A stretch of 64,000 nucleotides of DNA from Dyella japonica A8 (lineage in GTDB: Bacteria > Pseudomonadota > Gammaproteobacteria > Xanthomonadales > Rhodanobacteraceae): assembly GCF_000725385.1 (NCBI RefSeq), contig NZ_CP008884.1, positions 434,001 to 498,000 on the forward strand, in the 5' to 3' direction. Position 1 is the stretch's first letter. Every line of letters begins with the position of its first letter. Under the pieces are notes generated by a model. It was not told the DNA's origin and searched no databases. It worked only from the letters and a program-made list of their open reading frames with translations. Shown one piece after another: positions 1,373 to 21,558 of the stretch. The translations under genes and the position numbers were made by a program.

Positions 1373-2176
1373 CTACTTCTCCGCCGTCAACACCACCGCC
1401 GCTTCAGCCGTCAGTTGCAGGAAGGTGAAGGACTCCTGCAAGTACAGCTGCACCGTCTCCTCGTTGTGGCTGAGATAGCCGATGGAGATGTCCTGGCCGA
1501 GATACAGCTCGAAATCCCCGCCGCGCGTGCTGAGCACCACCCCACCCTGGATGGCCGGCGCCCAGATGATTTCGCCATCCACCAGGTTGCGCATGTCGCG
1601 CGCCACGGGATAGCCGTGCTGCGTGGCGGCGCTCACCGCCGTATACGCCTGCTCGCCGAGCAGCAGGGTGTACGGGCCGTTGACGCCCATCTCGCGAAGC
1701 TGGCTGACCGCGCGCGCCACGGCACCGGGATAACCGGCGACATCCTTCGGCAGCGCGATGGCTTCGTTGCTGGTGCCCTTGCGGATGCCTTCGATGTGGC
1801 CGGCCTCATAGCCCTCGAACACCGCGCGATCCTCGGCAAAGGCGATCTTGCGCGCAGCGTCCTTCAGTGGCTGCAGGTCCGGATCGTTCGCGCCGCGCTC
1901 CACCGAATCCAGCGAACGACGCGATAGCCCGAACGGCACGCGGAACTCCACCAGCGGCTTCGCCTCGCGCAGGTGGGCTTCGATGCCGCCATCCGGCGCG
2001 TGGATCTTCGCCACGTGTCCGGTGCCGACCGCCGAGAACTCGCTGCCCTTGGGGCCCAGCACGTCGGCCACCCGCCGCGCCGCCAGATGGCGCTTCAGCG
2101 TGCGCGCGGCTTCCTGCTCGATCTGGTCCCACGCCCGTTCGGAAATGGGCGCGAGCTTCCGGTGAAGATTATTCAT
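1373..2176 (-). CDS. Family 1 encapsulin nanocompartment shell protein
   Basis: A 267-residue protein of the usual length for HK97-fold encapsulins. It starts MNNLHRKLAPISERAWDQIE, followed by the ARRVADVLGPKG segment and ends in TFLQLTAEAAVVLTAEK, all characteristic of the linocin M18/encapsulin family. It self-assembles into a cytoplasmic protein shell that encloses a cargo enzyme. The ATG at 2176 has AAAGGAG upstream, inside the end of the DyP gene. The DyP stop lies 8 bases into this gene (ATGAATAA), so the two are translationally coupled. The cargo is almost certainly the DyP peroxidase, which carries an encapsulin targeting peptide. Confidence 0.95.
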   Translation of the reverse strand: MNNLHRKLAPISERAWDQIEQEAARTLKRHLAARRVADVLGPKGSEFSAVGTGHVAKIHAPDGGIEAHLREAKPLVEFRVPFGLSRRSLDSVERGANDPDLQPLKDAARKIAFAEDRAVFEGYEAGHIEGIRKGTSNEAIALPKDVAGYPGAVARAVSQLREMGVNGPYTLLLGEQAYTAVSAATQHGYPVARDMRNLVDGEIIWAPAIQGGVVLSTRGGDFELYLGQDISIGYLSHNEETVQLYLQESFTFLQLTAEAAVVLTAEK

Positions 2177-3209
2177 GTGCGGGCTCTCCTTTGAGCGAAC
2201 CGATACCGAGCGAACCGTCAGGCGACGGCGCCGCGCCGGATGCTGCTTCATCCGTCGCAGGCGTAACAGCCGGGGTTTCATCCACCGGCACATCGTCAAG
2301 GAAGGTGGCAGTGGGAACGAAGAACAACGAGCCCGTTACCGCCTTGCTGAAATCCAGCAAGCGGTCGTAGTTGCCTGGCGGGTTGCCCACGAACATGTTG
2401 TTGAGCATCTTCTCGATGCGCGAGGGGGAGCGCGCGTAGCCGATGAAGTAGGTGCCGAACTCGCCCTTGGACACGTCGCCGAACGGCATGTTGTCGCGCA
2501 GGATCTGCAACTGCTCACCGTTCTCTTCGATATTGGTAAGCACGTTGTGCGCATAGCTGGCCTTGGCGGCGTCAGCCTGCTCGATGTCCGACAGCTTGTG
2601 CCGCCCGATGATGCGCTCCTGCTGCTCCACCGGCAGCTTGTTCCAGGCGGTGAGGTCGTGCAGGTATTTCTGCACGATGACATAGCTGCCGCCGGCAAAG
2701 TCCGGATCCTCGTCGCGGATCAGGGTGGCATCCAGCGCCGCCTGGCCCGAGGGGTTCTCGGTACCATCGACGAAACCCAGCAAATCACGCTCATCGAAGT
2801 ACTTGAAACCGTGCACTTCGTCGGCCGAGGTCACGCCATCACCAAGTCGTAACATGATCTGGGACGCCAGTTCGAAGCACAGATCCATATGCGTGGCACG
2901 GATATGGAAGAGTAGGTCGCCCTGCGTGGAGACGGCGTGGTGTTCTCCCCGGATCTCCCGGAAGGGATGCAACTCCGCCGGACGCGGTCCGCCGAACAGG
3001 CGATCCCACGTGTCCGAACCAAAGCCCATGGTGCACGACAACTTGCGCGTGGGATGGCGGAAACCGATGCCGCGCAGCAACGACGACAGATCGGCGCAGA
3101 GCGCCCGCACGGCTTGATCCACCCGCGGCTCCGGCGCCAGCGTCACCACGAGGAAGATGGCCGATTGCGTCAATTTCTCGGCAACCGGCTGCGAAACGAT
3201 GGAAGACAC
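2169..3209 (-). CDS. Dye-decolorising (DyP-type) haem peroxidase, encapsulin cargo
   Basis: A 346-residue DyP peroxidase starting at GTG 3209, with AAGGAG 6 nt upstream; longer readings to 3281 lack a ribosome site. The DyP fingerprint GFVDGTENPSG carries the catalytic Asp, and the haem-side region RDEDPDFAGGSYVIVQKY follows. The enzyme uses peroxide to oxidise dyes, phenolics and possibly haem. The C-terminus is extended by a Pro/Ala/Thr-rich linker and ends SLGIGSLKGEPAHE, which matches the SLGIGSLKG cargo-loading peptide that docks DyP inside encapsulin shells. It overlaps the encapsulin start by 8 nt and is the first gene of the operon. The promoter should lie in 3210-3300. Likely role: an oxidative-stress nanocompartment. 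Confidence 0.95.
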   Translation of the reverse strand: MSSIVSQPVAEKLTQSAIFLVVTLAPEPRVDQAVRALCADLSSLLRGIGFRHPTRKLSCTMGFGSDTWDRLFGGPRPAELHPFREIRGEHHAVSTQGDLLFHIRATHMDLCFELASQIMLRLGDGVTSADEVHGFKYFDERDLLGFVDGTENPSGQAALDATLIRDEDPDFAGGSYVIVQKYLHDLTAWNKLPVEQQERIIGRHKLSDIEQADAAKASYAHNVLTNIEENGEQLQILRDNMPFGDVSKGEFGTYFIGYARSPSRIEKMLNNMFVGNPPGNYDRLLDFSKAVTGSLFFVPTATFLDDVPVDETPAVTPATDEAASGAAPSPDGSLGIGSLKGEPAHE

Positions 3210-3309
3210 AATCTGCTCCTTATGACGGGGTCTGGCCGAGGCATGGCAATCACGCCATGAAGCACCCATGCGGAGCAACATTCAATACCCAAGGAGGTGA
3301 CTGAACCGT

Positions 3310-4967: not shown

Positions 4968-5436
4968 TCATCATTCCCACTTCGCAGCGGGCTGAAAACG
5001 CCCACAAAGTCGACGGCTCACTACTTAGTCATCCAAACCACAGAGGTGCTGATGCGTCTTCACATCCAATCTCCGTCGGTTGAGGGATTGGACTCCAAAT
5101 CGCCGTGCTACTGAAAAGCGGGGGTACGTCGTTTGTCTGGGTTCGAAGACTGGTCGAAAGTCTATTTCAAAGGATTAGCATCCCTCGCTGGAATCGGCCA
5201 CACGGTGGATAGCCTCTAGCCCTTTGATCAAGTTCTAGTGCCCTCTCTGAGAGGCACTATCTCGAGGCAATCGTAAGCCGGAGATTGCCTGCCCTATGCA
5301 TGCCGCGACTTGCCGTGTGCCATGGATGGGACCTCCCGCGACGCTATCCAGGCTTACGACCGCAAAAGGAACGGAACTGCCTCAGCTTTTCTTGTCAATG
5401 CGCGTTGCAACCACAAATACCGGGACGGAGGCCACC

Positions 5437-6444
5437 ATGGCGACGTTGATATCGGTTGTTATTGCCGTTGTCACCTATCTCACATTCAACCACCACCTCT
5501 CTGGCCTTGAGACGGCGGTAATGCTTGGCGGGATAGTCACCATCGTACGAATAGGCATCGCTATAGATAGAAATTCGTATCAAACGAAAAAGAACAAACG
5601 CTTCCAGGCAGACATGCTTTCCGTCTACCACGAAATTCTTGGGCGAGAGCATGACGACAGTGAAAGCCCAGTGCTATCGGATGCTGCGATTGAAATCGAC
5701 GGCTCTCTTGCACAGCCGTTGCACGGCGGCCACGAGTCCTGCGACGGCCTACAAACTTATGAGCTGGGGGAATCCATTTCTAACCAAGACTTGGTGCATG
5801 CTCGGTCCAGTAGCGAGAAACGATTCGGCCGAAAAGGCTCTACGAAGTGCATCATTCTGTTTCTCAGGCCATTTGTTCTTGACCGCGACTTTAAGGTCGT
5901 CAATCCGGTTAGTCCTTGGAAACGATTGATACCTTTCTACAGTCTCGCAGTGCCATCCGTGACTTCCTTGGACGACGCAATGGCGATTGCAATAAAGGGC
6001 TATGGTGAACTTATCGCCATTGGCGACCAAGCGGGTCAGATCGGCGCCACCCGCCTTCAAACGACAGAAGAAAACTGGCGGAATGACTTCGCCGTGCTTG
6101 CCGAGGCCGCGAGCGCAATCATCATATATGGCAGTAAACAGTCGGGGACCGCCTGGGAGACCACCCAGGTGATATCCAAAGGAGATTGGCTTGCCAAGTC
6201 AGTCTTCATCTTCCCGTACCCAACTGCCAACGAAGGGGTCCGCGGTGAAAATTTCGTGGCCGCCAAAGATCTTTTACGCCATGCCGGATGTGTCATCTCT
6301 TCGAAGACGGCGCACGGAGACGGTATTACTTTCTCAAGAGCAAAGACCGTGTCGCGTCGAGTCTCGTTGCTAGCGCCGCGCTTGGTACAACTTGAACTCA
6401 AAGCAAAAGAATTCAAGCAAATCGTTGAGGCTGTCGGTGTCTGA
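5437..6444 (+). CDS. Two-TM membrane protein with TIR-like soluble domain (candidate defence effector)
   Basis: The start at ATG 5437 is chosen for GGAGG 6 nt upstream and because the first residues form a membrane segment (MATLISVVIAVVTYLTF). A second hydrophobic stretch lies at about 28-45. The roughly 200-residue soluble region has an alternating beta/alpha pattern: IILFLRPFVLDRDF, ELIAIGDQAGQIGATRL, then an ENWRNDFAVLAEAASAIII helix-strand, SGTAWETTQVI and SVFIFPYP. The WE motif after a strand-loop resembles the catalytic Glu region of TIR-like folds, but I cannot assign a family. It stands alone, convergent with the TIR gene at 6563, at the left edge of the TIR/caspase island. A membrane-anchored sensor or effector is an inference from context. 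Confidence 0.7.
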   Translation: MATLISVVIAVVTYLTFNHHLSGLETAVMLGGIVTIVRIGIAIDRNSYQTKKNKRFQADMLSVYHEILGREHDDSESPVLSDAAIEIDGSLAQPLHGGHESCDGLQTYELGESISNQDLVHARSSSEKRFGRKGSTKCIILFLRPFVLDRDFKVVNPVSPWKRLIPFYSLAVPSVTSLDDAMAIAIKGYGELIAIGDQAGQIGATRLQTTEENWRNDFAVLAEAASAIIIYGSKQSGTAWETTQVISKGDWLAKSVFIFPYPTANEGVRGENFVAAKDLLRHAGCVISSKTAHGDGITFSRAKTVSRRVSLLAPRLVQLELKAKEFKQIVEAVGV

Positions 6445-6562
6445 TGAATGGACGACGTCAAGCAACAGATACTTCCAGACCACGATTCATTCCCAGTGCC
6501 CATAGATTGGACATCAGCGAACGCCGACTCGCTAATATTCTGGCGCCCCTTTCACTGTACGT

Positions 6563-7042
6563 TTACTGCCCCAGTCGACGACGCAGATCTTCATAGAACA
6601 GATCCGTTGAGTGCCGCTTCACGACCGCCTCCTCCTTATGGACACCTCGACTCTCGAGAATGGCAGTCAACCCCGCTTGCTGAGCGGCTGCCACATATGA
6701 ATCCAAATGCTCCGCGCGACTCAAGTACGGCCACTTCTGCAGATAAGTTGGCAGGCTGGCGCCACCCTCGGAAAAAGTTGCTAGAGGAAGGTCTCGCTCA
6801 GATGCGACGCCAATCTCCCACGGCACCCACCAAGAGCGCTGCGTCGAGCCCGAAACGACTGCCAGTAGATGGCTACAACCACGCATCTTCTCGCGTAAGT
6901 GCATGGCGAGCTGATGCCCATCCTTCGCGCCATCATCCATAACGTCCAGATAGGATTCGACCTTATGGTTATCACGCAGACGAGTGGCAATTCGGATGGC
7001 TAGCGGCGCATCTTCCATTTGGTGCGAAATGAATACCTTCAC
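6563..7042 (-). CDS. TIR-domain protein (159 aa), divergent from caspase/hydrolase operon
   Basis: Starts at GTG 7042 behind AGGGAAAG. The N-terminus MKVFISHQMEDAPLAIRIA is TIR box 1. YLDVMDDG follows, then SGSTQRSWWVPWEIGVA, which holds the conserved Glu (E76) used by NAD-cleaving TIRs. The protein is essentially a lone TIR domain with a short C-terminal helix region. It could make an NAD-derived signal or deplete NAD. It is transcribed away from the caspase-like gene across a 157-bp shared promoter region. The pairing of a lone TIR with a neighbouring caspase-like effector parallels TIR-signalling defence systems, so the two may form one module. The partnership is inferred from position. 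Confidence 0.8.
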   Translation of the reverse strand: MKVFISHQMEDAPLAIRIATRLRDNHKVESYLDVMDDGAKDGHQLAMHLREKMRGCSHLLAVVSGSTQRSWWVPWEIGVASERDLPLATFSEGGASLPTYLQKWPYLSRAEHLDSYVAAAQQAGLTAILESRGVHKEEAVVKRHSTDLFYEDLRRRLGQ

Positions 7043-7199
7043 TGTGCTTTCCCTTGCATCTTGGGTGCGTGATAGACGAAGGAAGATAATCGTTTAGATT
7101 TGCTTTCTCAATAGACCAATCGACAGCTATAGTTCGCTACGCATTACCCACTTTCGCGACACATCAACCTGAAACTCCAACGGAACCTCTTCGTTAGCT

Positions 7200-8975
7200 A
7201 TGGAACGAGCAATTATCCTCATTGGAGTCAGTCGGGCCGCAGGCGGGCTACGGCCATTGATGGCAGTCGATAAGTCCGTTGAAAGTATGTATCAATGGGC
7301 AGTACATCAGGGAATAGCCAAAGATCGCATCATCGTATGCTCGGATGCCAAAGGCTGTCGCGTCACCATTGCGCAAATTTTTGATGCAATACATGGCCTA
7401 CCTTCGACCGTAGAGCAGTTGATCGTTTATTTCTCCGGGCATGGCGTCATTAACAGCAGGCAGGAGTACTGGCTTCTGTCTGGGGCGCCAGACAACGCCA
7501 ACGAAGCGATCAATCTTGAAGCAAATATTGTCCTCGCCCGCATGGGGCGGTTTTCTCACGTCGTATTGATTTCGGACGCCTGCCGAACACAAACCCAGAG
7601 CATCGAGTTTGGTCAAATACGGGGGAGCGATATATTTCCCAACGCGACGAATGCATCGTTGGAGCGACCCGTCGACGTCTTCTTTGCAACCTCTCTTGGT
7701 TCCCCTGCACTGGAGGTCAAAGACGAAACTGGTGAGGCGTACAACGCTGTTTTCACCGAAGTACTCGTCGAGGCTCTCAATGGTCGAGTGGCCCAAGCAG
7801 TCACCGGAATGTATGTAAGGCCTCATCCACTTAAAAGAGCACTCCCTGAGGTTGTGCGTAAGAGCCTCCATGAGAAGGGCTTGTCTATCTTCACCGACCA
7901 GACCCCGGATGGTCGCATTACCTCGGACGAATCTGCATGGATATCTAGGTTGTCCAGTAGTACACCCACCACTCTGAATCAGTCGCCAGGCCCCACAGTT
8001 CGCTTCAGCCTAGGCGAAAAAAGGAGTGAGTCTCGCACCAACGAGAGAACAGATCCCGCGAAGCAACAGCCTCCTTCTGTCTTGGCAGAGAAGAGAGTAG
8101 AGAGGCTTTTAGACAGTTCCCGCGACGGGACCCGCATTTCACTAGGGGAACTCGAGCCCCCAAAGTCATTTCTTCACTCTCTTATTGAAGCGAGGAACCT
8201 CAGCCCGTCTCGGTACAGAGAATTATCTGGTCTTGAAGTGTACGGAGAATACCTTGGGTCGATCAGATTCAGACGTGGGCGAGCAGGATCGCAGATCCTT
8301 CCAGAATCATTTGAACGACGGGCGGTGCTGTTCCAGGATTTGAGCACGCCTGTGGAAACGCTCCTTACCTTTGTAGACGGTACGGGAACAACCATTCCCC
8401 TCATTCCCGGATACTTTGCTTTGCTCCGATTTAACGGAAGTAGCCTCGCGGAAGTGTGGTATGAGCCGGCCCATCCGGAGATTGCTCGAGTAAGCAGACG
8501 CGAAATAGCCCCTTTGAGAACAGCCATCGCAGATGCAATTTCCTTAGGAGTCTTCTCGCCCGACGTCGAAGGCGCGAATCGGCTTGCTGATCTAATGAGG
8601 TCCCACAAGTTTGGTGATCCGGCGTTGGCTATTTACGCTTCCTACGCCTACCACCAGCTCGGCAAGACAACAAAGATTGTCAACATGCGACGGTACCTGA
8701 AAAATGAGTTGGGTATGGACATCTTTGATGCAGCGTTTTTGTCTCGGCAGTTTCTTATGGAGCCGAGAGATAGCCGGCCGACAATGCCAACGACGCCCAT
8801 GCTCACCCGAGGCTGGGCTCTAGTTAGTGCGCTAGGCGGATCGCACGCGGAAAAATTGTCACAGCTGCGCCCATACATTCTTCCGTCGACCTGGTCATTG
8901 TATTCGATCGATGGAGTGCGCCTACTTGATCAATGGTTCGATCAAATGGGCGGCGAACTACTGGCTAATTATTAG
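7200..8975 (+). CDS. Caspase-like (C14/metacaspase) protease with long unknown C-terminal region
   Basis: A 591-residue protein. Its first 230 residues form a caspase p20-like fold: strand MERAIILIGVS, catalytic His81 in LIVYFSGHG, and catalytic Cys128 in VVLISDACRTQ. A basic/Ser-rich linker (about 240-320) precedes a 270-residue C-terminal region without a motif I recognise. That region may sense a signal or be the maturation partner. The gene is 10 bp upstream of an alpha/beta hydrolase gene and divergent from a TIR gene. Caspase-like proteases in such islands are abortive-infection executioners activated by a nucleotide signal or by proteolysis. The start has only a weak ribosome site, but the next Met would remove the first strand. 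Confidence 0.8.
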   Translation: MERAIILIGVSRAAGGLRPLMAVDKSVESMYQWAVHQGIAKDRIIVCSDAKGCRVTIAQIFDAIHGLPSTVEQLIVYFSGHGVINSRQEYWLLSGAPDNANEAINLEANIVLARMGRFSHVVLISDACRTQTQSIEFGQIRGSDIFPNATNASLERPVDVFFATSLGSPALEVKDETGEAYNAVFTEVLVEALNGRVAQAVTGMYVRPHPLKRALPEVVRKSLHEKGLSIFTDQTPDGRITSDESAWISRLSSSTPTTLNQSPGPTVRFSLGEKRSESRTNERTDPAKQQPPSVLAEKRVERLLDSSRDGTRISLGELEPPKSFLHSLIEARNLSPSRYRELSGLEVYGEYLGSIRFRRGRAGSQILPESFERRAVLFQDLSTPVETLLTFVDGTGTTIPLIPGYFALLRFNGSSLAEVWYEPAHPEIARVSRREIAPLRTAIADAISLGVFSPDVEGANRLADLMRSHKFGDPALAIYASYAYHQLGKTTKIVNMRRYLKNELGMDIFDAAFLSRQFLMEPRDSRPTMPTTPMLTRGWALVSALGGSHAEKLSQLRPYILPSTWSLYSIDGVRLLDQWFDQMGGELLANY

Positions 8976-8985
8976 GGAGAAGATC

Positions 8986-9867
8986 ATGAAAGACCTGGTG
9001 CTGATTCATGGTCGTTCGCAGGAAGGGAAAAATGCGATCGAATTGAAAGCCAGTTGGGTAGATGCCTGGGCAAGAGGTCTTGGCAAAGACAGCCTAGATG
9101 TACCCATTACTGATTCGCGCATTCACTTCCCTTACTACGGCGACTCTCTGTTCGATCTGACCAACGGAAGTAGCGTCGACGATGCAGCCAGAATTATTGT
9201 TCGCGGAGCGGAGATCGACATTACATCAGCTTCGTTTATCAATCGGATGCTTGAAGATTACGTCAATGGATTGGGCATCACCGATGCCGAGATTGCAGAA
9301 GAATTACCTGTCGATCAACGCCGAGTCATACAGCGCGGAATTCAGAACTTGCCTTGGGTCCAGGCAGCGCTCAGAGTCATGGACCAACGCCTTCCGGGCA
9401 CAGGTGCAGCGATAGCATTGGCAACCTACGATGTATACATCTACCTCACAAATGACCGAGCGCGCACCTACATCAATGATGGAGTACGTAAGGCGATTCG
9501 TGATTGTAGCGTCGTGGTTGCCCATTCACTTGGAACGATTGTGGCCTACAACGTTCTTAGGGACTTGGACCCCAAAGAAGTAAAAATCCCGCTACTAGTC
9601 ACCCTGGGATCGCCGCTAGGAATTCGCTCTATCCGCGAAAAGCTTAGCCCTATCAAGCATCCGCCCTGCGTTTTTGAATGGCGTAACGCTAGAGACCCGC
9701 GAGATGTCGTGGCCTTATACCCACTGGACAACGTCAACTTTGATATCAAGCCATCGATCATCAATAAGAGCGACGTATTCAATCACACTTCGAATTGCCA
9801 TGGCATCGCGGGATATTTCGATGACCCAGTTGTCGCGCAGTGGGTCTACGACGCCATATCCGATTAA
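8986..9867 (+). CDS. Alpha/beta hydrolase co-transcribed with the caspase-like protease
   Basis: A 293-residue protein starting at ATG 8986 (AGGGAGA upstream), 10 bp after the caspase stop. KDLVLIHGRSQEGK gives the oxyanion HG loop, and VVVAHSLGTIVAYNVL is the nucleophile elbow with Ser181. A late Asp (ARDPRDVV) and His (NCHGIAGYF) are placed to complete the triad. The fold matches lipase/esterase-like serine hydrolases of unknown substrate. There is no signal peptide, so it acts in the cytoplasm. Tight coupling to a caspase-like gene suggests either a second toxic effector or a zymogen switched on by cleavage. Neither can be proven here. Confidence 0.8.
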   Translation: MKDLVLIHGRSQEGKNAIELKASWVDAWARGLGKDSLDVPITDSRIHFPYYGDSLFDLTNGSSVDDAARIIVRGAEIDITSASFINRMLEDYVNGLGITDAEIAEELPVDQRRVIQRGIQNLPWVQAALRVMDQRLPGTGAAIALATYDVYIYLTNDRARTYINDGVRKAIRDCSVVVAHSLGTIVAYNVLRDLDPKEVKIPLLVTLGSPLGIRSIREKLSPIKHPPCVFEWRNARDPRDVVALYPLDNVNFDIKPSIINKSDVFNHTSNCHGIAGYFDDPVVAQWVYDAISD

Positions 9868-9944
9868 GCGCCTTCAGCCACGAACTGGGGCGACCGAGTG
9901 CTGCTCGAACCGATCCGTATCGCGTAGTGCTTACATCGAGATTG

Positions 9945-10919
9945 TCAAAGTCGACCTTTGGCAACAAGTCGCCTGTAGTGCTCTCCAAGAACAGTTAGCT
10001 TGCAGCTCTTGCTCTCCATTGCCGCATGCCACATATGGGGCGCATTGACTGGCACGACCAAATTGAGACGGTTGTAACGCTGAAGGATTGCAAATCGCCA
10101 AGTGTTCTCGGGGTCGGGATTGGGCATACCTGGATCGCGCCCCTTCATCTCCGGTTCGAACGATGGGTCGAGCCCGAATTCGGCACCGGGAAAAGGAAAA
10201 AACTCCGAGATTCGCTGCAGATCACTTAGGTCAATAGGGGGTGCAACCTTACGAAGCGATACAAACTCCTGCACGTTTGTCTTGAACACCGGACGCTGCT
10301 CCCATCCGCCAAGCGATTGATCGACGTGTGCGTAGACGCTTCCAGGAGTGATATCGCCGGTAAGATTTGCCGCTCCCCCAAAAAGTGCGTCTACAAGAAG
10401 TGTTGTGAATACCCCCCGACCATCTTCTTCAATCGCAGGCTGATCGGCTGTGGATGCGGTGAGAATCGTCATCCCCTCTGACAGCGACGCGAGGTTACTC
10501 ACACCAGGGATCGCTCCGGCAGCTCCCGAGTAGCAGCTATCGAGGACGATGATCTTGTTCTGGGCGGGAGAGGCGTTTGCTAGCGTCATGATCTCAGAGA
10601 GGGACAGTCCTTCGTCTCCTTGCGTGGCATCTGACGCCACCACATATCCGCCAGTCGCCTCCACTTGCCCATGGCCTGCAAAATAAAACAGCGCAATCTC
10701 CGCTTTGGCATTGAATAGTTTTCTGACGTGTTCCTTGAGCTGTCGCCGGTCTACCTTCTGCTCAGGCCCCACGCTGGTGAGCAAGGTTGTATCAAAATTG
10801 ACCGTTCCGTCACCGTGACGACTAAGAACGGATTGCACCGAGTAGGCGTCTGCCACACAACCGGTGAGCGGCTTTAGATGCTCGTAGAAGTCGATTCCAA
10901 CAATCAGCGCAATTCGCAT
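9945..10919 (-). CDS. Caspase-like protease of a TIR-caspase (type IV Thoeris-like) operon
   Basis: ATG 10919 behind GGGAG gives a 324-residue protein; the longer reading to 10964 has no ribosome site. The peptidase C14 core shows [13 protein letters not shown], catalytic His83 in [10 protein letters not shown] and catalytic Cys129 in [13 protein letters not shown]. The segment [19 protein letters not shown] completes the p20/p10-like fold. The C-terminal 110 residues ([16 protein letters not shown] onward) are probably the signal-binding or regulatory part. It lies 13 bp downstream of a ThsB-like TIR gene. This order (TIR, then caspase) matches the pairs reported as type IV Thoeris, where a TIR-made cyclic ADP-ribose isomer activates the protease to kill infected cells. 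Confidence 0.85.
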
Positions 10920-10932
10920 TTTAGCTCCCAAA

Positions 10933-11304
10933 CTAAAGGCCGTCGATAAAGTCCTTGATTGCATCCCAAGTCCAAGGCACCGTCTTCAGTCCTTGGATAA
11001 CGGTCCGGTCATGACTGTAGATCCAGAGGCCGAGTACCGGACGTTTCTCCTCGCGAGCGCAGGCTATCTCCCACTTCTGGCCGGTAGACGCTAGTGAGTT
11101 CTTACTTACTAGCGCAATGACGCCATCAGATCGTCTTATTCGATTGCGAACGTGTTCCTTCCACTCGGAGGTGTAGGCCTCCTTGACAGACATATCGATA
11201 TACTCAAAGGGAGACTTTGTATGCAGAGACTGCCCCTTAAGTAGGTCGCGCGAGCGCTCGTCTTCAATTGCAAAAGCCACAAATACAACCTTTTTTTCGG
11301 CCAT
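10933..11304 (-). CDS. ThsB-like TIR protein of the TIR-caspase operon
   Basis: A 123-residue single-domain protein behind AGGGAGATC. It follows the DUF1863/ThsB-type TIR pattern: [56 protein letters not shown], then [13 protein letters not shown] with the candidate catalytic Glu79. ThsB-type TIRs sense infection and convert NAD into a cyclic ADP-ribose signal. The next gene, 13 bp downstream, is a caspase-like protease, the expected effector. The operon converges on the hydrolase gene of the neighbouring TIR/caspase module. Domain call is strong; the exact Thoeris type is inferred from gene pairing. Confidence 0.85.
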
Positions 11305-11438
11305 ACTGATCTCCCTATGTGAAGCAGTGACAATGGAACGCTCCGTTGGCGACTAGAGCACTGAAGCGCAGTCAACCTTGAGAACAGGTCCGCGCTACCC
11401 GCCTTGGAGTCGACACCAGCAGATGCGTGTCCTCGGAT

Positions 11439-11591
11439 TCAAGTATGGACAGAAGCGCTCTCAATTGGCTGGGCGGATTTGGCATCTTTCACCACGCCCG
11501 CTACGTAGGTAAGCCGATCGCATGGCCCAAAGTAGCAACAGCCGCCCAAAAGCAGTGAGGCAAATAGCCCGGCCCATCTAGAAAATGACAT
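11439..11591 (-). pseudogene. Small lipoprotein gene cut by an in-frame TGA
   Basis: Behind a GGGGGGCG ribosome site the frame reads MSFSRWAGLFASLLLGGC, a lipoprotein signal with Cys18. It continues DRLTYVAGVVKDAKSAQPIE to TGA at 11439-11441. The frame then continues with IRGHASAGVDSKAGSADLF, which resembles the next strand of a carboxypeptidase-regulatory-like beta fold. A 50-residue lipoprotein is possible, but premature truncation of a longer one is more likely. Confidence 0.45.
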
Positions 11592-11606
11592 CGCCCCCCT
11601 TTTCCG

Positions 11607-11635
11607 ATGTCCGCTTTGTGTCGAAAGCAGACCTT
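11607..11635. repeat. Dispersed palindrome flanking the kinase gene, left copy
   Basis: ATGTCCGCTTTGTGTCGAAAGCAGACCTT, same orientation as the copy at 12191. It abuts the kinase stop codon. Confidence 0.75.
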
Positions 11636-12138
11636 CAAGCTAAACCAACTACACGTACATCATATATTTCACGTTCAACCTCTCCGATCGGCTCCCAGTG
11701 ATCGCTTGCCAGCTCGAAAAACGCATCAGGCACGTCCATCGCGTATGTCGGGCCTCGTTCCAGATTGCGCTTGCGGACACGCTCCCGTCGCACCTCGCGC
11801 GGGGCATCCAGCAAGTATATGGCCAAGTCGTATCCGGCCTCGCTCACCTGTGCGTAGAAGTGTTCGCGGCTAGCCCGTTCGACCAGCCCGAGCTCAAGGA
11901 CGACATCATGGCCCGCATCCAGAACCTCCCGGGCCGCCATCCAGATCTGATCAAGGCAACGCGCCTTCCTGGCGATGTACCACTCCATCGCGTTCGTCGC
12001 AGGACGATCCGGGCTATATAGCCTGACGAACCACGCATCCAGGATAAAACCCGGTGCCGCGTATTGCTTTCGGAGTTCGGCGACGAACGTGGATTTGCCG
12101 GCGCCAACCGGCCCTTCAACCAGGTGAATCGTTGCCAT
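11635..12138 (-). CDS. AAA_33-type P-loop kinase / ATP-binding protein
   Basis: The start at ATG 12138 is preferred because MATIHLVEGPVGAGKSTF begins directly with the first strand and Walker A (residues 9-16), and AAGGAAG lies upstream. The 167-residue protein continues with a mobile lid (REVRRERVRKRNLERG) typical of small zeta-toxin/gluconate-kinase-like phosphotransferases of the AAA_33 family. The substrate is unknown. The gene is monocistronic and bracketed by two direct copies of a 28-bp palindromic repeat (11607 and 12191), so it looks like a movable single-gene unit. It could be a metabolic or antibiotic kinase, or a toxin-like kinase. Confidence 0.75.
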   Translation of the reverse strand: MATIHLVEGPVGAGKSTFVAELRKQYAAPGFILDAWFVRLYSPDRPATNAMEWYIARKARCLDQIWMAAREVLDAGHDVVLELGLVERASREHFYAQVSEAGYDLAIYLLDAPREVRRERVRKRNLERGPTYAMDVPDAFFELASDHWEPIGEVEREIYDVRVVGLA

Positions 12139-12190
12139 TTCGGTGAAGTCTTCCTTGATGGTGTAAGTAGGTGGCGATGCCAAAGCAAAG

Positions 12191-12364: not shown

Positions 12365-13239
12365 ATGTCTTCCTCACTGACCGCTCGTAGTCCTGATCTG
12401 TTGCGCCTGCGGAATGAGGGCTTTCATCTGGAGGTGCAGGATGGCTATCTGCTCGTCCACGACGCGCCCTACGTCAACTCGGACGCGGTGTGGAGCGCGG
12501 AACGCTTGCGTTCCGCCTGGATTTGACCGGCGCCATCGCGGTCAAGCCGCAGGAGCACACGGCCTATTTCATCGGTAAACGTCCCTGCGATACGCAGGTA
12601 CATCCGTTGTCGGCCATCATCAACAACAGCGCGACCACGGTGGTGAATAGCATCACCGTGAACCACTATCTCTCGGCAAAACCGCGGACGGCTGACCTTC
12701 TCTATCGGTTCTACTACGAGAAGGTCACCAAGTATGTGGCGCAGCTCGAAGGGCATGCCAAGCACCTCTCGCCAGGGATCAGTGCGCGTACGCTTCCGCT
12801 CGTCTTGGCCGACGGCAATGAGTCCGCGTTCGCATACAAAGACACCGCTTCGACGCGAGCCCACATTGGTGTACCCACCGGCCGCCTGAAATCGCGGCGC
12901 ATCGCGATTGTTGGTCTGGGGGGCACCGGTGCCTATGTGCTCGACCTCGTGGCGAGAACGCCTGTCGCCAAGATCGATCTCTGGGACGGCGATGTTCTCC
13001 AGCAGCACAACGTGTTTCGCTATCCAGGTGCGGCGCCCATCGAGACCCTTCAAGCGACGCCGACCAAGGTCGGGTATCTGGCCGGCGTCTATCAGGCCAT
13101 GCGCCGGCACATCGTCCCGCACGCGGAAATGATCACTGCGGACAACGCTCATCTCCTTCGCGACTTCGACTACGTGTTCGCCTGCGTCGACCGAGCCGAC
13201 GCCCGACGCCTTAGGGCAGCCCGCACGCTGCAACATTGA
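12365..13239 (+). pseudogene. DUF6791-ThiF (E1-like adenylyltransferase) gene, frameshifted and C-terminally truncated
   Basis: ATG 12365 opens SPDLLRLRNEGFHLEV and YLLVHDAPYVNSDAV, the start of a DUF6791-type N-terminal domain. Near 12488-12490 one base appears to be missing. The protein resumes in another frame as ERGTLAFRLDLTGAIAV...HTAYFIGKRPC, then RRIAIVGLGGTGAYVLD (the ThiF nucleotide loop) and IDLWDGDVLQQHN. The frame ends soon after DYVFACVDRADARRL, so the C-terminal half is lost. Intact relatives are E1-like enzymes of bacterial ubiquitin-like pathways, often with JAB peptidases and multiubiquitin proteins in defence islands. Just upstream, the end of another ORF (GTLVKGQSAHLKQGMEFDV, stop 12388-12390) overlaps this start and may be the remnant of its partner. 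Confidence 0.75.
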
Positions 13240-18092: not shown

Positions 18093-19235
18093 TCAGTACA
18101 GGCGCTGTAGCTCGCGCGTATATGCAAGTACATTTTCTGTGTTGGCCACATCCAGCGTACTCAACAGCGCCATCACATTTCGACGATAGTCACCCACTTC
18201 AGAATCGTGTCGCTCAAAAGTCTGCAGAAGCATGCGACCTCCTTCCTGGCAGTCGAAGTCGGGATAGTAGTAGCCATAGTTACGAATGAATTCGGAGTTG
18301 TGAATCAACGGATATCCACCGTACAGGACCTCATAATATAGATAGTTCTGGCCATTCTCCCAATGATGGGAGATCACGCAGTCTCCGCAACTAGCCATGA
18401 AATCAGCCAGCGGGTAGCGTCCCTCAAACGTGGTCAAGCCGTGGTTGACGATGTCAAGGCTCCTCGCGAAGTGAAGAAACTTCACGTGGTCCTTCATATG
18501 CAGGCTATTGCATACGCGCACAGATTCAAACATTGAAGGCCTGGCGCGATAGGCCTCCTCGCACACAAGCATGGGAATGAATGACGTCTTGACCATGCAT
18601 ACGTTGGGCTCAAAGACGCACATTCGCCAACGGTCTTTGCCCGACTGATACCCCCAAGGTGTTTGCGTTGGAAGCGTAGCGATCGCGCGGTCAAGAAAAT
18701 ATGGATTCCATAGATGTGGAACAATGCGAAGAGGTGCACGTGCCATCATGGAAAAATAGTCTCCGCAACTCCGCTCGTACTCAGGAATGGTCCAAACGGC
18801 ATCGTAAGGTTTGTCGCTCGACAGACCACTGTGCGGCTTGTTAAACATTGCCCTTTCTATATCGATCACATAGTCATTGCCGACTCTCATCCATACGTAT
18901 CGCCCACCCGATTGACGATAAGCCTTGACCCAATCATCACTAAGCTGAGAACTCATCTCGATAACGACATCGAGCTTCTCGTAGGCATCGCCCACCTCCA
19001 TCAACTCGATTCCCGTACCTTCCAGCATCATGGATGGATGAGCCACCTTGCCCTCTCCCCCACGCACCAACACTGCTTCTTCGACGACAGGGCTCAGTTT
19101 GAGAAGCTGAACTAGAAAGACGCAGTTCTGAAAGATCCCGTTCTCCCATATCGATTGAACGTTCTCACGCAAATGCAAAGTAACGCCCACCTTCAAGCGA
19201 TTGGCATCAATCCTTCTTCCAGCTTGTTCGCTCAT
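18093..19235 (-). CDS. DUF2827 protein, third of a tandem trio (putative glycosyltransferase)
   Basis: A 380-residue protein starting with ATGA that overlaps the upstream paralogue's stop. Family hallmarks are KVGVTLHLRENVQSIWENGI, FLVQLLKLSP, FEPNVCMVKTSFIPMLVCEE, VVNHG-type and SHHWENGQNYLYYEVLYGGY, then HNSEFIRNYGYYYPDFD. The layout suggests two Rossmann-like halves (GT-B style) with a late donor-site-like region, but no DUF2827 function is established to my knowledge. There is no signal peptide, so it is cytoplasmic. It is the last gene of a three-gene operon downstream of a giant adhesin. Modification of the Ser/Thr/Asn-rich adhesin stalk is an attractive inference. Confidence 0.85.
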   Translation of the reverse strand: MSEQAGRRIDANRLKVGVTLHLRENVQSIWENGIFQNCVFLVQLLKLSPVVEEAVLVRGGEGKVAHPSMMLEGTGIELMEVGDAYEKLDVVIEMSSQLSDDWVKAYRQSGGRYVWMRVGNDYVIDIERAMFNKPHSGLSSDKPYDAVWTIPEYERSCGDYFSMMARAPLRIVPHLWNPYFLDRAIATLPTQTPWGYQSGKDRWRMCVFEPNVCMVKTSFIPMLVCEEAYRARPSMFESVRVCNSLHMKDHVKFLHFARSLDIVNHGLTTFEGRYPLADFMASCGDCVISHHWENGQNYLYYEVLYGGYPLIHNSEFIRNYGYYYPDFDCQEGGRMLLQTFERHDSEVGDYRRNVMALLSTLDVANTENVLAYTRELQRLY

Positions 19236-20422
19236 TCGCTCACCACGTTGTCGACTAGCATTTCGATGCGATGGACAAATTCACTAATATTGTCGGGATG
19301 CCCCGGGGAAAGGCGTGCCAGCAAGCGTCGCGCGCACGCGGCGTAATCGCTCCAGTAGTCTGCGTCTTTCTCCCAAGCCTCAATGAGACAAGCGCCACCC
19401 GTAGCGGCGTCGAAATCGGGGTAGTACAGCCCTGCGCCGTGACCTCGTAGAAATTGCGAATTGTGCACGAGAGGATATCCACCATAGAGAGCATCGTAGT
19501 ACAGGTAGTTCATGTCGCACTCCCAATGGTGCGAGACGACGACGTCCATGGCATACCGCGTCATGCAGTCAGCAAAATCCAAACGAGGTTCGTAACTTGC
19601 ATGAGAGTTGCGAGTCAAATCGAGATTGGAAGCAAAGCGATTGAAGGTGTAGTGCTCCTTCATATGGTAGCTATTCATAACCATCATCAACGCAATCGAT
19701 TCAGGCTTGCTTCTATAGGCCTTCTCACATACCAGCATTGGTAGAACGCTATTCTTTACCACTGATATGTTGGGCTCGAAGATGGCAGCACGCCAGCCGT
19801 GGCGAACCGCACCAGGCTGCCTCGGCCGAAAGCCGAAGGACCGACCTACTTCGCCAAGGCCTTGCAGTCGCTTCTGAATAAAAGTGGGGGCCCATATGTG
19901 TGGCACGGCGTGCACGGGCACGCGCGTCACCGTCTTCAGTAAGGGTCCGCTGGTCTTCATGTGGTGCGGCAACGTCCAGACTTCGTGCCATGGAGTGCCA
20001 TTAAAAATGTGCCCGGCCTCTTTCCCAAAGAGCGGACTTTCGGCGAGATCCGCGAATGTATGTCCCACGAAGAAGGTGACGATCTTGGTGCCTAGCGCAC
20101 GCACATGGCGAAGCCACTCCAAAGGAAGCTGCGCTCCCATTTCGATAACAAGATCCAGCTCATGAGTGACCTCTGAGGGCGCCACAAGAGGGGTGTCCAA
20201 TAGATCAAAATTCAACCCCGCCGGCAGCCGTGGCTGATCACCACCGTTGAGCAAAACGATGCGCCCTACCCGCTCGCTGTCGCGCAGCAGTGTCACCAGG
20301 AATGCCAGATTCTGGTTGAGTCCACTTGACCAAAGCTCAGCGCCTTGCACGGCAAACACGGAAATGCCGACATTGATTTTACGGCCCAACTGACCTTCCT
20401 TCAGGGATGGAGCTTTAGTCAT
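19232..20422 (-). CDS. DUF2827 protein, second of trio
   Basis: A 396-residue paralogue, with 4-nt overlaps at both ends (19232-19235 and 20419-20422), so all three genes are translationally coupled. It carries NVGISVFAVQGAELWSSGLN, NLAFLVTLL, FEPNISVVKNSVLPMLVCEK, VVSHHWECDMNYLYY, ALYGGYPLVHNS and LYYPDFD. It differs from the other two in the AELWSSGLNQ start and RHVRALGTKIVTFF segment, which suggests a different acceptor or donor, not a recent duplicate. Confidence 0.85.
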   Translation of the reverse strand: MTKAPSLKEGQLGRKINVGISVFAVQGAELWSSGLNQNLAFLVTLLRDSERVGRIVLLNGGDQPRLPAGLNFDLLDTPLVAPSEVTHELDLVIEMGAQLPLEWLRHVRALGTKIVTFFVGHTFADLAESPLFGKEAGHIFNGTPWHEVWTLPHHMKTSGPLLKTVTRVPVHAVPHIWAPTFIQKRLQGLGEVGRSFGFRPRQPGAVRHGWRAAIFEPNISVVKNSVLPMLVCEKAYRSKPESIALMMVMNSYHMKEHYTFNRFASNLDLTRNSHASYEPRLDFADCMTRYAMDVVVSHHWECDMNYLYYDALYGGYPLVHNSQFLRGHGAGLYYPDFDAATGGACLIEAWEKDADYWSDYAACARRLLARLSPGHPDNISEFVHRIEMLVDNVVSE

Positions 20423-21558
20423 ATTGGAGGGGTTATCCTGAGTTCCGTCAGGAGCTGTGCGTACTGAGCTATGACGGACCTATTCTGTGGCAGATAGCGG
20501 GTAATGAGCGTTCGCTGCCGGCGTCGATACTCTTCCCACTGCTGGTCATGCGTCGCTATTGCATGGAGCAAAGTATCGGCACCGATCTGGACATCATTGT
20601 CAGGGTAGTAATAGCCAAGATCGGAGCACATGTTCGCGTTGTGCACCAACGGATAACCCATCCAACAAACATCGAAGTAGAAGTAATTAAGCGGATTCTC
20701 CCATTGATGCGATACAACCACGTCTGTGAATTCGCTCAAGAAGTAGGGCGTGTCATAGCGACCAAGGAAGGTGGCCTTGTGGTCACGCACTAGGTCAAGG
20801 TGATTCATCAGTGCGATGAACTCGGCGCTATCGCTTGCCATGGATTCGGTATTGGTGACATACAGGCTCGCTATGTCCTGGGGCCGGCGTCGATATGCCT
20901 CCTCGGCAATCAGAATCGGATACAGGCAAAACTTCACGATGTCATGGTTGGGCTCCATGATGCTCAGCCGCTTTGCATCCCGGTGTGGAACATACTCGGC
21001 TACTTTCGACAGCTCACGACAGCGCTGATCGAGAAGAACTGGTGACCACACAAAGGGTACGGTGCGCGCCTGACGTCGCCTCAGGGTTTGAAAATAGTGA
21101 CGGCTTATGTAATCAACCTGAGGCACCATCCAAATGGCATCGTAGCGCTGGTTCACGAATAAGTTATATCCCCACATCGGCCGTTTAAATAGGATCGACT
21201 CCATGGCATGGACGTATTCGAAACCGCAGCAATAAGACACCAGGTGTGTACCGCGTTGCTTCAAGTAATCGGTTGCGTCGGCACCAACCTGACCACCCAG
21301 TTCAATCAATACGTCTAAGTAATCCTTGATCTCACCCAGCCCCTTTACGGGCCAGCGAGACGTATTCCACGGCATGCTTTCTTCAAGCGGCACGGAAGTC
21401 GTATTGACCAACGTCACCGAACCGACGTTTGGGCACTGCCTGAGCGTCTCCGCCAGGTAAATGGCATTCTGTTTGATGCCGTTATTCCACAACGTCTCCG
21501 TTGGGCTGGACAATCCGATAGTGATACCGATGCGAAGAAGATCTGAATCATTGGACAT
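20419..21558 (-). CDS. DUF2827 protein, first of trio
   Basis: A 379-residue paralogue, first in the operon, beginning 221 bp downstream of the adhesin stop on the same strand. It has RIGITIGLSSPTETLWNNGIK, NAIYLAETLRQCP, MEPNHDIVKFCLYPILIAEE, VVSHQWENPLNYFYFDVCW and LGYYYPDNDV. Sequence drift between the three members is large, so the trio is old. No separate promoter is obvious in the 221-bp gap, and cotranscription with the adhesin is possible. Confidence 0.85.
   Translation of the reverse strand: MSNDSDLLRIGITIGLSSPTETLWNNGIKQNAIYLAETLRQCPNVGSVTLVNTTSVPLEESMPWNTSRWPVKGLGEIKDYLDVLIELGGQVGADATDYLKQRGTHLVSYCCGFEYVHAMESILFKRPMWGYNLFVNQRYDAIWMVPQVDYISRHYFQTLRRRQARTVPFVWSPVLLDQRCRELSKVAEYVPHRDAKRLSIMEPNHDIVKFCLYPILIAEEAYRRRPQDIASLYVTNTESMASDSAEFIALMNHLDLVRDHKATFLGRYDTPYFLSEFTDVVVSHQWENPLNYFYFDVCWMGYPLVHNANMCSDLGYYYPDNDVQIGADTLLHAIATHDQQWEEYRRRQRTLITRYLPQNRSVIAQYAQLLTELRITPPI

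Follow-up and report, generated by a model that had tools for sequence, protein, structure and literature searches.

Two-gene unit of a caspase-like protease and predicted lipase within a TIR-caspase gene set of Dyella japonica A8

Does a TIR gene that lies back to back with a gene for a caspase-like protease, itself closely followed by an alpha/beta-hydrolase gene, make one defence module with them? The question is raised by Dyella japonica A8, where a reading from sequence alone had proposed such a three-gene module at positions 6563-9867 of the window (the whole stretch of DNA analysed, 64,000 nucleotides of contig NZ_CP008884.1). The parts that this sequence-only reading described are borne out (Table 1): a TIR protein, TIR1, with Glu E76; a 591-amino-acid (aa) caspase with the His81/Cys128 dyad; 10 bp between the caspase stop codon and the ATG (at 8986, preceded by GGAG) of a serine hydrolase with Ser181; and a caspase C-terminal region, residues 292-591, in which no Pfam family was matched. 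The 591-aa caspase falls just below the cut-off of Pfam Peptidase_C14 (7e-4; 19.8 bits versus 21.4) and the hydrolase gives weak, sub-threshold alpha/beta-hydrolase matches; homologues at E<=0.001 number at least 212 for the caspase (among the best 7998 candidates scored), 1969 for the hydrolase and 210 for TIR1, which excludes a chance reading of the three open reading frames (ORFs). As detailed below, the caspase and the hydrolase form a conserved two-gene unit, and TIR1 is no part of it.

A conserved unit of caspase and hydrolase

Each gene was used alone as the query in the surveys of genomic partners. With the hydrolase, 80 loci were kept out of at least 410 confirmed relatives in species genomes, and in 67 of them a caspase gene of the same family as the 591-aa protein (A2) immediately precedes the hydrolase gene on the same strand, so that the coupling of these two genes in the sequence-only reading holds. 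Spacing calculated by script for 65 pairs includes 18 overlaps by four bases and 12 gaps of 27-295 bases, the few large negative values being plain start-codon errors. Over 75 pairs the distances among caspases agree with those among hydrolases (Mantel r 0.889; none of 2000 permutations as high), as expected if the two were inherited together; loci L003 and L057, with partial caspases, were excluded from the distance tests and from the tree described below.

The same hydrolase family also occurs beside other proteases. Seven further loci have another caspase- or CHAT-type protease: CHAT in L026 (scanned) and L032 (by homology); EAD11-CHAT in L071, L074 and L077, the first two also with LRR-Roc-COR proteins; a weak caspase match in a 1200-aa neighbour in L024 (Pfam E 0.04, below cut-off); and, on an Azonexus contig (L028), a caspase of a second type, which follows the hydrolase and precedes a TIR-Sel1 protein. 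No protease was seen beside the hydrolase in L056, L058, L060, L061 and L072, apart from an M24 peptidase gene upstream in L060, and in L022 the neighbourhood is cut by the contig end. On plasmids, where 10 of 45 hydrolase records and two regions from 11 caspase records were opened, seven of the ten hydrolase regions have a caspase-sized neighbour (six annotated as caspase; that of L171 annotated as hypothetical and matched by the caspase query), a CHAT gene lies beside L170, L175 has no caspase match, and in L177 (3918-5906, a Streptomyces plasmid) the hydrolase domain stands behind a trypsin-like protease in a single 662-aa protein. One IMG/VR contig (L098) carries the caspase-hydrolase pair, and on two others distant hydrolases adjoin a caspase-WD40 protein (L099) and a caspase whose nSTAND and propeller matches fall below threshold (L100).

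The pairing itself is prior art. Kaur et al. (2020; PMC7159879) reported that caspases in VMAP (MoxR-vWA) ternary systems always have an alpha/beta-hydrolase gene as neighbour and that the two operate together; an association of this kind, earlier held to be part of no nameable system, has thus been known since 2020. The likeness to the VMAP system is this adjacency; the difference is that the pair here stands alone. Membership was ruled out, since scans of seven ORFs (5296-12183) matched no VMAP, MoxR or vWA family and the caspase C-terminal region likewise gave none. The EACC1 two-gene system, in which a caspase of the EACC1-associated type follows a gene for a membrane protein, EACC1, was also rejected: none of the scanned ORFs matched EACC1, and the 591-aa caspase scored 38.8 bits against NF047832 (101.4 for casp2, a second caspase described below) at a cut-off of 140.

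Table 1. Features of the locus (positions in the window).
Feature	Position	Strand	Description
TIR1	6563..7042	-	159 aa; GTG start; W72-V-P-W-E76; Pfam TIR_2 6.2e-10
Divergent intergenic region, TIR1/591-aa caspase	7043..7199		157 bp
Caspase-like protease	7200..8975	+	591 aa; H81/C128 dyad (G-H81-G, D126-A-C128-R); predicted S1 acids D126, E172
Caspase C-terminal region (residues 292-591), candidate sensor/regulatory part	8073..8972	+	helices, eight strands, helices; conserved
Alpha/beta hydrolase	8986..9867	+	293 aa; S181 (A-H-S181-L-G), D237 or D240, H272; helical cap about 64-170
R73-G74 codons of hydrolase, candidate cleavage site in cap	9202..9207	+	R/K-G conservation; edge of low-confidence model stretch
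casp2, second caspase	9945..10964	-	339 aa; Pfam Peptidase_C14 6.4e-16; conserved beside TIR1
TIR2, ThsB-like TIR	10933..11304	-	123 aa; Pfam ThsB_TIR 1.7e-7; TIR2-casp2-TIR1 order in relatives

The TIR set and the nesting of the pair

TIR1 had been described as a lone TIR, a description that fails just past the end of the proposed module, where casp2 and TIR2, its conserved partners, are found. The survey of TIR1 relatives covered 7 of 21 plasmid records, a single viral contig, 38 places spread over 37 of the 249 genomes of a genus in the window's class, and another genome besides. Among these 47 loci, 33 have TIR2, casp2 and TIR1, four have casp2 and TIR1 (casp2 thus being present in 37), and ten have TIR1 alone, one of them at a contig edge and nine scoring <=108 bits; the commonest gene order is TIR2-casp2-TIR1 on one strand. 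An A2 caspase or the hydrolase was seen in none of the 47 within the 4-6 kb read, and neither TIR1 nor TIR2 appeared at family strength in the flanks read of any of the 80 hydrolase loci (the TIR-Sel1 protein of L028 scores 26 bits). The three-gene module thus does not survive the gene-neighbour comparison that the sequence-only reading had suggested for it: the caspase-hydrolase linkage stands, and the TIR linkage falls in the way that reading had said would count against it.

Type IV Thoeris combines TIRs with a caspase-like protease that TIR-made N7-cADPR activates (Rousset, 2025, as cited in PMC12847820 and PMC13373217). TIR2, casp2 and TIR1 share this make-up of TIR genes and a caspase-like protease gene and, by this gene content, are classed as a type IV Thoeris-like set; the 591-aa caspase with its hydrolase differs, being unlinked to TIR1 in the other loci seen. 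The Thoeris precedent, the 157-bp divergent arrangement and L028, with its hydrolase, second-type caspase and TIR-Sel1 protein in a row (the nearest thing to a TIR/caspase/hydrolase module observed), would agree with a tripartite system in which TIR1 senses phage, a nucleotide signal that it produces activates the 591-aa caspase, and the hydrolase is substrate or second effector. Such a system is very unlikely given the reciprocal absence just described and the fact that TIR1 already has a caspase of its own in casp2.

In the window TIR2, casp2 and TIR1 are on the minus strand, and the plus-strand pair fills the 2.9 kb that separate casp2 from TIR1, a nesting found in this genome only among the loci seen. 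The pair was probably inserted into a TIR2-casp2-TIR1 set, although no close relative with an empty site was encountered. The casp2-TIR1 gap of plasmid L088 holds an S8 peptidase gene and a hypothetical gene, and that of plasmid L092 an extra gene annotated DUF1273, without a Pfam match; it looks as if the gap were open to accessory effectors. These occupied gaps, together with the D-x-C motif of casp2 and hence its predicted preference for Arg or Lys, would suit a pair captured by the TIR set as an effector cassette, with casp2 or the TIR signal also triggering the 591-aa caspase and the nesting itself functional. We consider this rather improbable, in view of the single genome with nesting, the 67 other loci in which the pair occurs without it, and the opposite strand of pair and set.

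For casp2, an ATG at 10919 is a likelier start than the one giving 10964. The region between TIR1 and the 591-aa caspase contains one promoter-like match per strand, though the promoter scan, like the terminator scan, returned no more matches than chance. Guanine-plus-cytosine content reaches about 0.64 over the first 4 kb, 0.51-0.56 for 5-12 kb and mostly 0.53-0.60 to the right; as the locus lies near the window mean of 0.56, composition alone marks no island and a low-GC island at the locus was ruled out. Just before the TIR1 stop, a plus-strand gene (5296-6444) encodes a protein of 382 aa that has a hydrophobic stretch at the N terminus, a C-terminal half that looks TIR/SLOG-like by eye, and no match in Pfam, NCBIfam or PADLOC. 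Elsewhere in the window are a ThiF-type E1-like protein with DUF6791 (12490-13239, plus strand; 249 aa spanning about residues 44-281 of a ~390-aa family, apparently truncated), genes for a DyP peroxidase and its encapsulin shell (1373-3281, minus strand) in the flank of higher GC, and three tandem DUF2827 genes of ~380 aa each (18093-21558, minus strand), downstream of a gene for a 1855-aa YadA-like autotransporter.

Protease, predicted lipase and a candidate cleavage site

The 591-aa caspase has the His/Cys dyad and acidic S1 pocket of the caspase superfamily (clan CD, paracaspase-like), and its nearest solved fold is MALT1, whose preference for Arg is set by Asp365, Asp462 and Glu500 (PMC4357240). 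Both D126 and E172 are invariant in a 115-sequence alignment. From the shared fold range, the motif and MALT1 numbering, we take D126 to correspond to MALT1 Asp462 and E172 to Glu500. With MALT1 paracaspase and metacaspases the protein thus shares the caspase domain fold and the D-x-C plus Glu S1 acids (in the MALT1 register assumed here), and it differs from them in its bacterial C-terminal region, which matches no Pfam family. PDB sequence searches aimed at a residue-level MALT1 alignment listed MALT1 and gave alignments only to metacaspases, over residues 1-82; a single-sequence PDB search found nothing and a further search no caspase. A paracaspase-like enzyme with a P1 preference for Arg or Lys is predicted. 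The C-terminal region is mostly modelled at high pLDDT (predicted local distance difference test) and has invariant P400, D473, D510, P533 and W539 among the 115 sequences; fold-search lists for the whole protein were filled by matches of the caspase domain.

The hydrolase finds its best fold matches in LPLA2/LCAT and has the nucleophile elbow G/A-H-S-L-G, the acid, the His and the fold type of lipases, from which a lipase/phospholipase fold is predicted; catalytic residues are intact in the pair. Three protease-free copies, all from Acidimicrobiales (L056, L061, L072), lie amid WS/DGAT and glycerol-3-phosphate dehydrogenase genes: two WS/DGAT genes near L056 (scanned), with homologues at L061 and L072, and a glycerol-3-phosphate dehydrogenase gene adjoining L061 (scanned) and, by homology, L072. 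These neighbours speak for a link to lipids and possibly hint at the ancestral substrate.

How the two enzymes might work together is suggested by a site in the hydrolase, R73-G74, which the model places in the cap over the active site. Residue 73 is Arg in 49, Lys in 18, Met in 9 and Gln in 1 of 77 caspase-linked copies (L170 and L175, whose N-termini did not align, were left out), with Gly next to it in 76 and the full R/K-G in 67, and none of the 28 positions from 56 to 83 has a lower entropy than 73 and 74. R/K-G is missing from four copies of Acidimicrobiales and one of Acinetobacter, none of which has a protease neighbour. The reading that we prefer, at a probability falling just short of even, is of a protease that activates the predicted lipase by cutting after Arg or Lys in its cap: the caspase C-terminal region would serve as the trigger sensor, the cut at 73-74 would switch the lipase on, and the active enzyme would damage the membrane and so kill the phage-infected cell.

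Several observations weigh against this proposal. Met or Gln occupies the P1 position in 10 of the 77 caspase-linked copies; L060 keeps R-G though it has no caspase-type neighbour; L074 and L077 read TRSG at the site; the trypsin fusion L177 is without it; and R-G also occurs in that region of the distant L085, for which the 3.5 kb examined gave no match to the caspase family. In the model R73-G74 lies towards the end of a helix predicted for residues 63-75 and borders the low-confidence stretch (block means 58, 64 and 73 over residues 51-80) instead of lying in its middle, so an exposed cutting loop is not shown. Positions 55 (entropy 0.10) and 84 (0.87), just outside 56-83, are equally conserved, and the R-G may therefore be structural. 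On the protease side, the position that would match MALT1 Asp365 seems not to be conserved. E172 is kept in 64 of 65 R/K pairs versus 2 of 9 Met pairs (Fisher 1.6e-7), and L039, with Gln, has also lost it, but the covariation of P1 and E172 is not significant once corrected for phylogeny (3 independent pairs, 2.1 agreeing); the raw link is no evidence because independent evolutionary changes are too few.

As an alternative, the hydrolase may be a partner enzyme rather than a substrate, for instance an acyl-removing regulator or a restraint on the caspase, with a structural R-G. The joint conservation of catalytic triad and R-G and the helix-end position would fit, and Kaur et al. (2020; PMC7159879) concluded only that caspase and hydrolase operate jointly. 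Against it, the stretch around R-G is otherwise variable, and the five copies named above lack the motif, though L060 keeps it; we regard a mere partnership as unlikely, if less so than the alternatives involving TIR1.

Spread and possible meaning

The pairing spans eight phyla and is patchy: in 274 genomes of the window's class the caspase was found in the window's own only, and the hydrolase there and in two with distant partial matches. On the hydrolase tree of 75 pairs the eight phyla need 17 label changes versus a minimum of 7, an excess that is no proof of transfer, as 10 rows fall in no group and 24 of 72 inner branches are weakly supported. The patchy spread, plasmid copies and single IMG/VR pair fit a mobile gene, not specifically an immune one. 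In a neighbour survey without a control set (167 proteins picked by script, 102 aligned, 84 scanned), none of the first 25 PADLOC families listed matched more than two of the 84 neighbours; the neighbours thus mark no defence island, which counts against an antiphage role. A pathway of cell death or stress that has nothing to do with phage would agree with this lack of enrichment and less well with the apparent mobility, non-specific as that is, and seems to us improbable.

Activation of the lipase by proteolysis would have parallels. Caspase-gasdermin systems, in which a caspase-family protease cleaves an adjacent membrane-damaging protein, would work alike, the difference being an enzyme here instead of a pore-former; no gasdermin match was found among the seven ORFs scanned. 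Canu caspase-nuclease and other protease-pronuclease pairs swap protease-activated pro-nucleases between systems (PMC12799240); the working likeness is a protease with an adjacent, exchangeable pro-effector, and the differences are a predicted lipase in place of an MBL-fold nuclease and two genes here against a prototype of three with an Ig-like domain. Canu membership was rejected, the partner being an alpha/beta hydrolase and no MBL match being found in the ORFs scanned. Open-licence PMC literature, judged by search listings, yielded neither a caspase-lipase system that stands alone nor a proposed cleavage site, and we found no precedent there for the stand-alone protease-swapping form, the cleavage-site model or the nesting.

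A broader reading, possible yet more doubtful than activation within the pair, is of a mobile "caspase-activated lipase", one lipase family with an R/K-G cap switch repeatedly coupled to various caspase-superfamily proteases (a stand-alone caspase with sensor region, TIR-caspase, CHAT, EAD11-CHAT with LRR-Roc-COR, STAND/WD40-like caspases) and providing a third proteolytic killing output. For the reading of gene neighbourhoods, a protease-effector pair that splits a TIR-caspase set on the opposite strand is a caution against taking co-location as one module. If cleavage at R73-G74 is true, it would give a residue-level mechanism to the caspase/alpha-beta-hydrolase association noted in 2020 and extend the outputs of bacterial caspases to the hydrolysis of membrane lipids; if the broader reading is true as well, the caspase-activated lipase would join gasdermin pores and protease-activated nucleases as an output of bacterial immunity.

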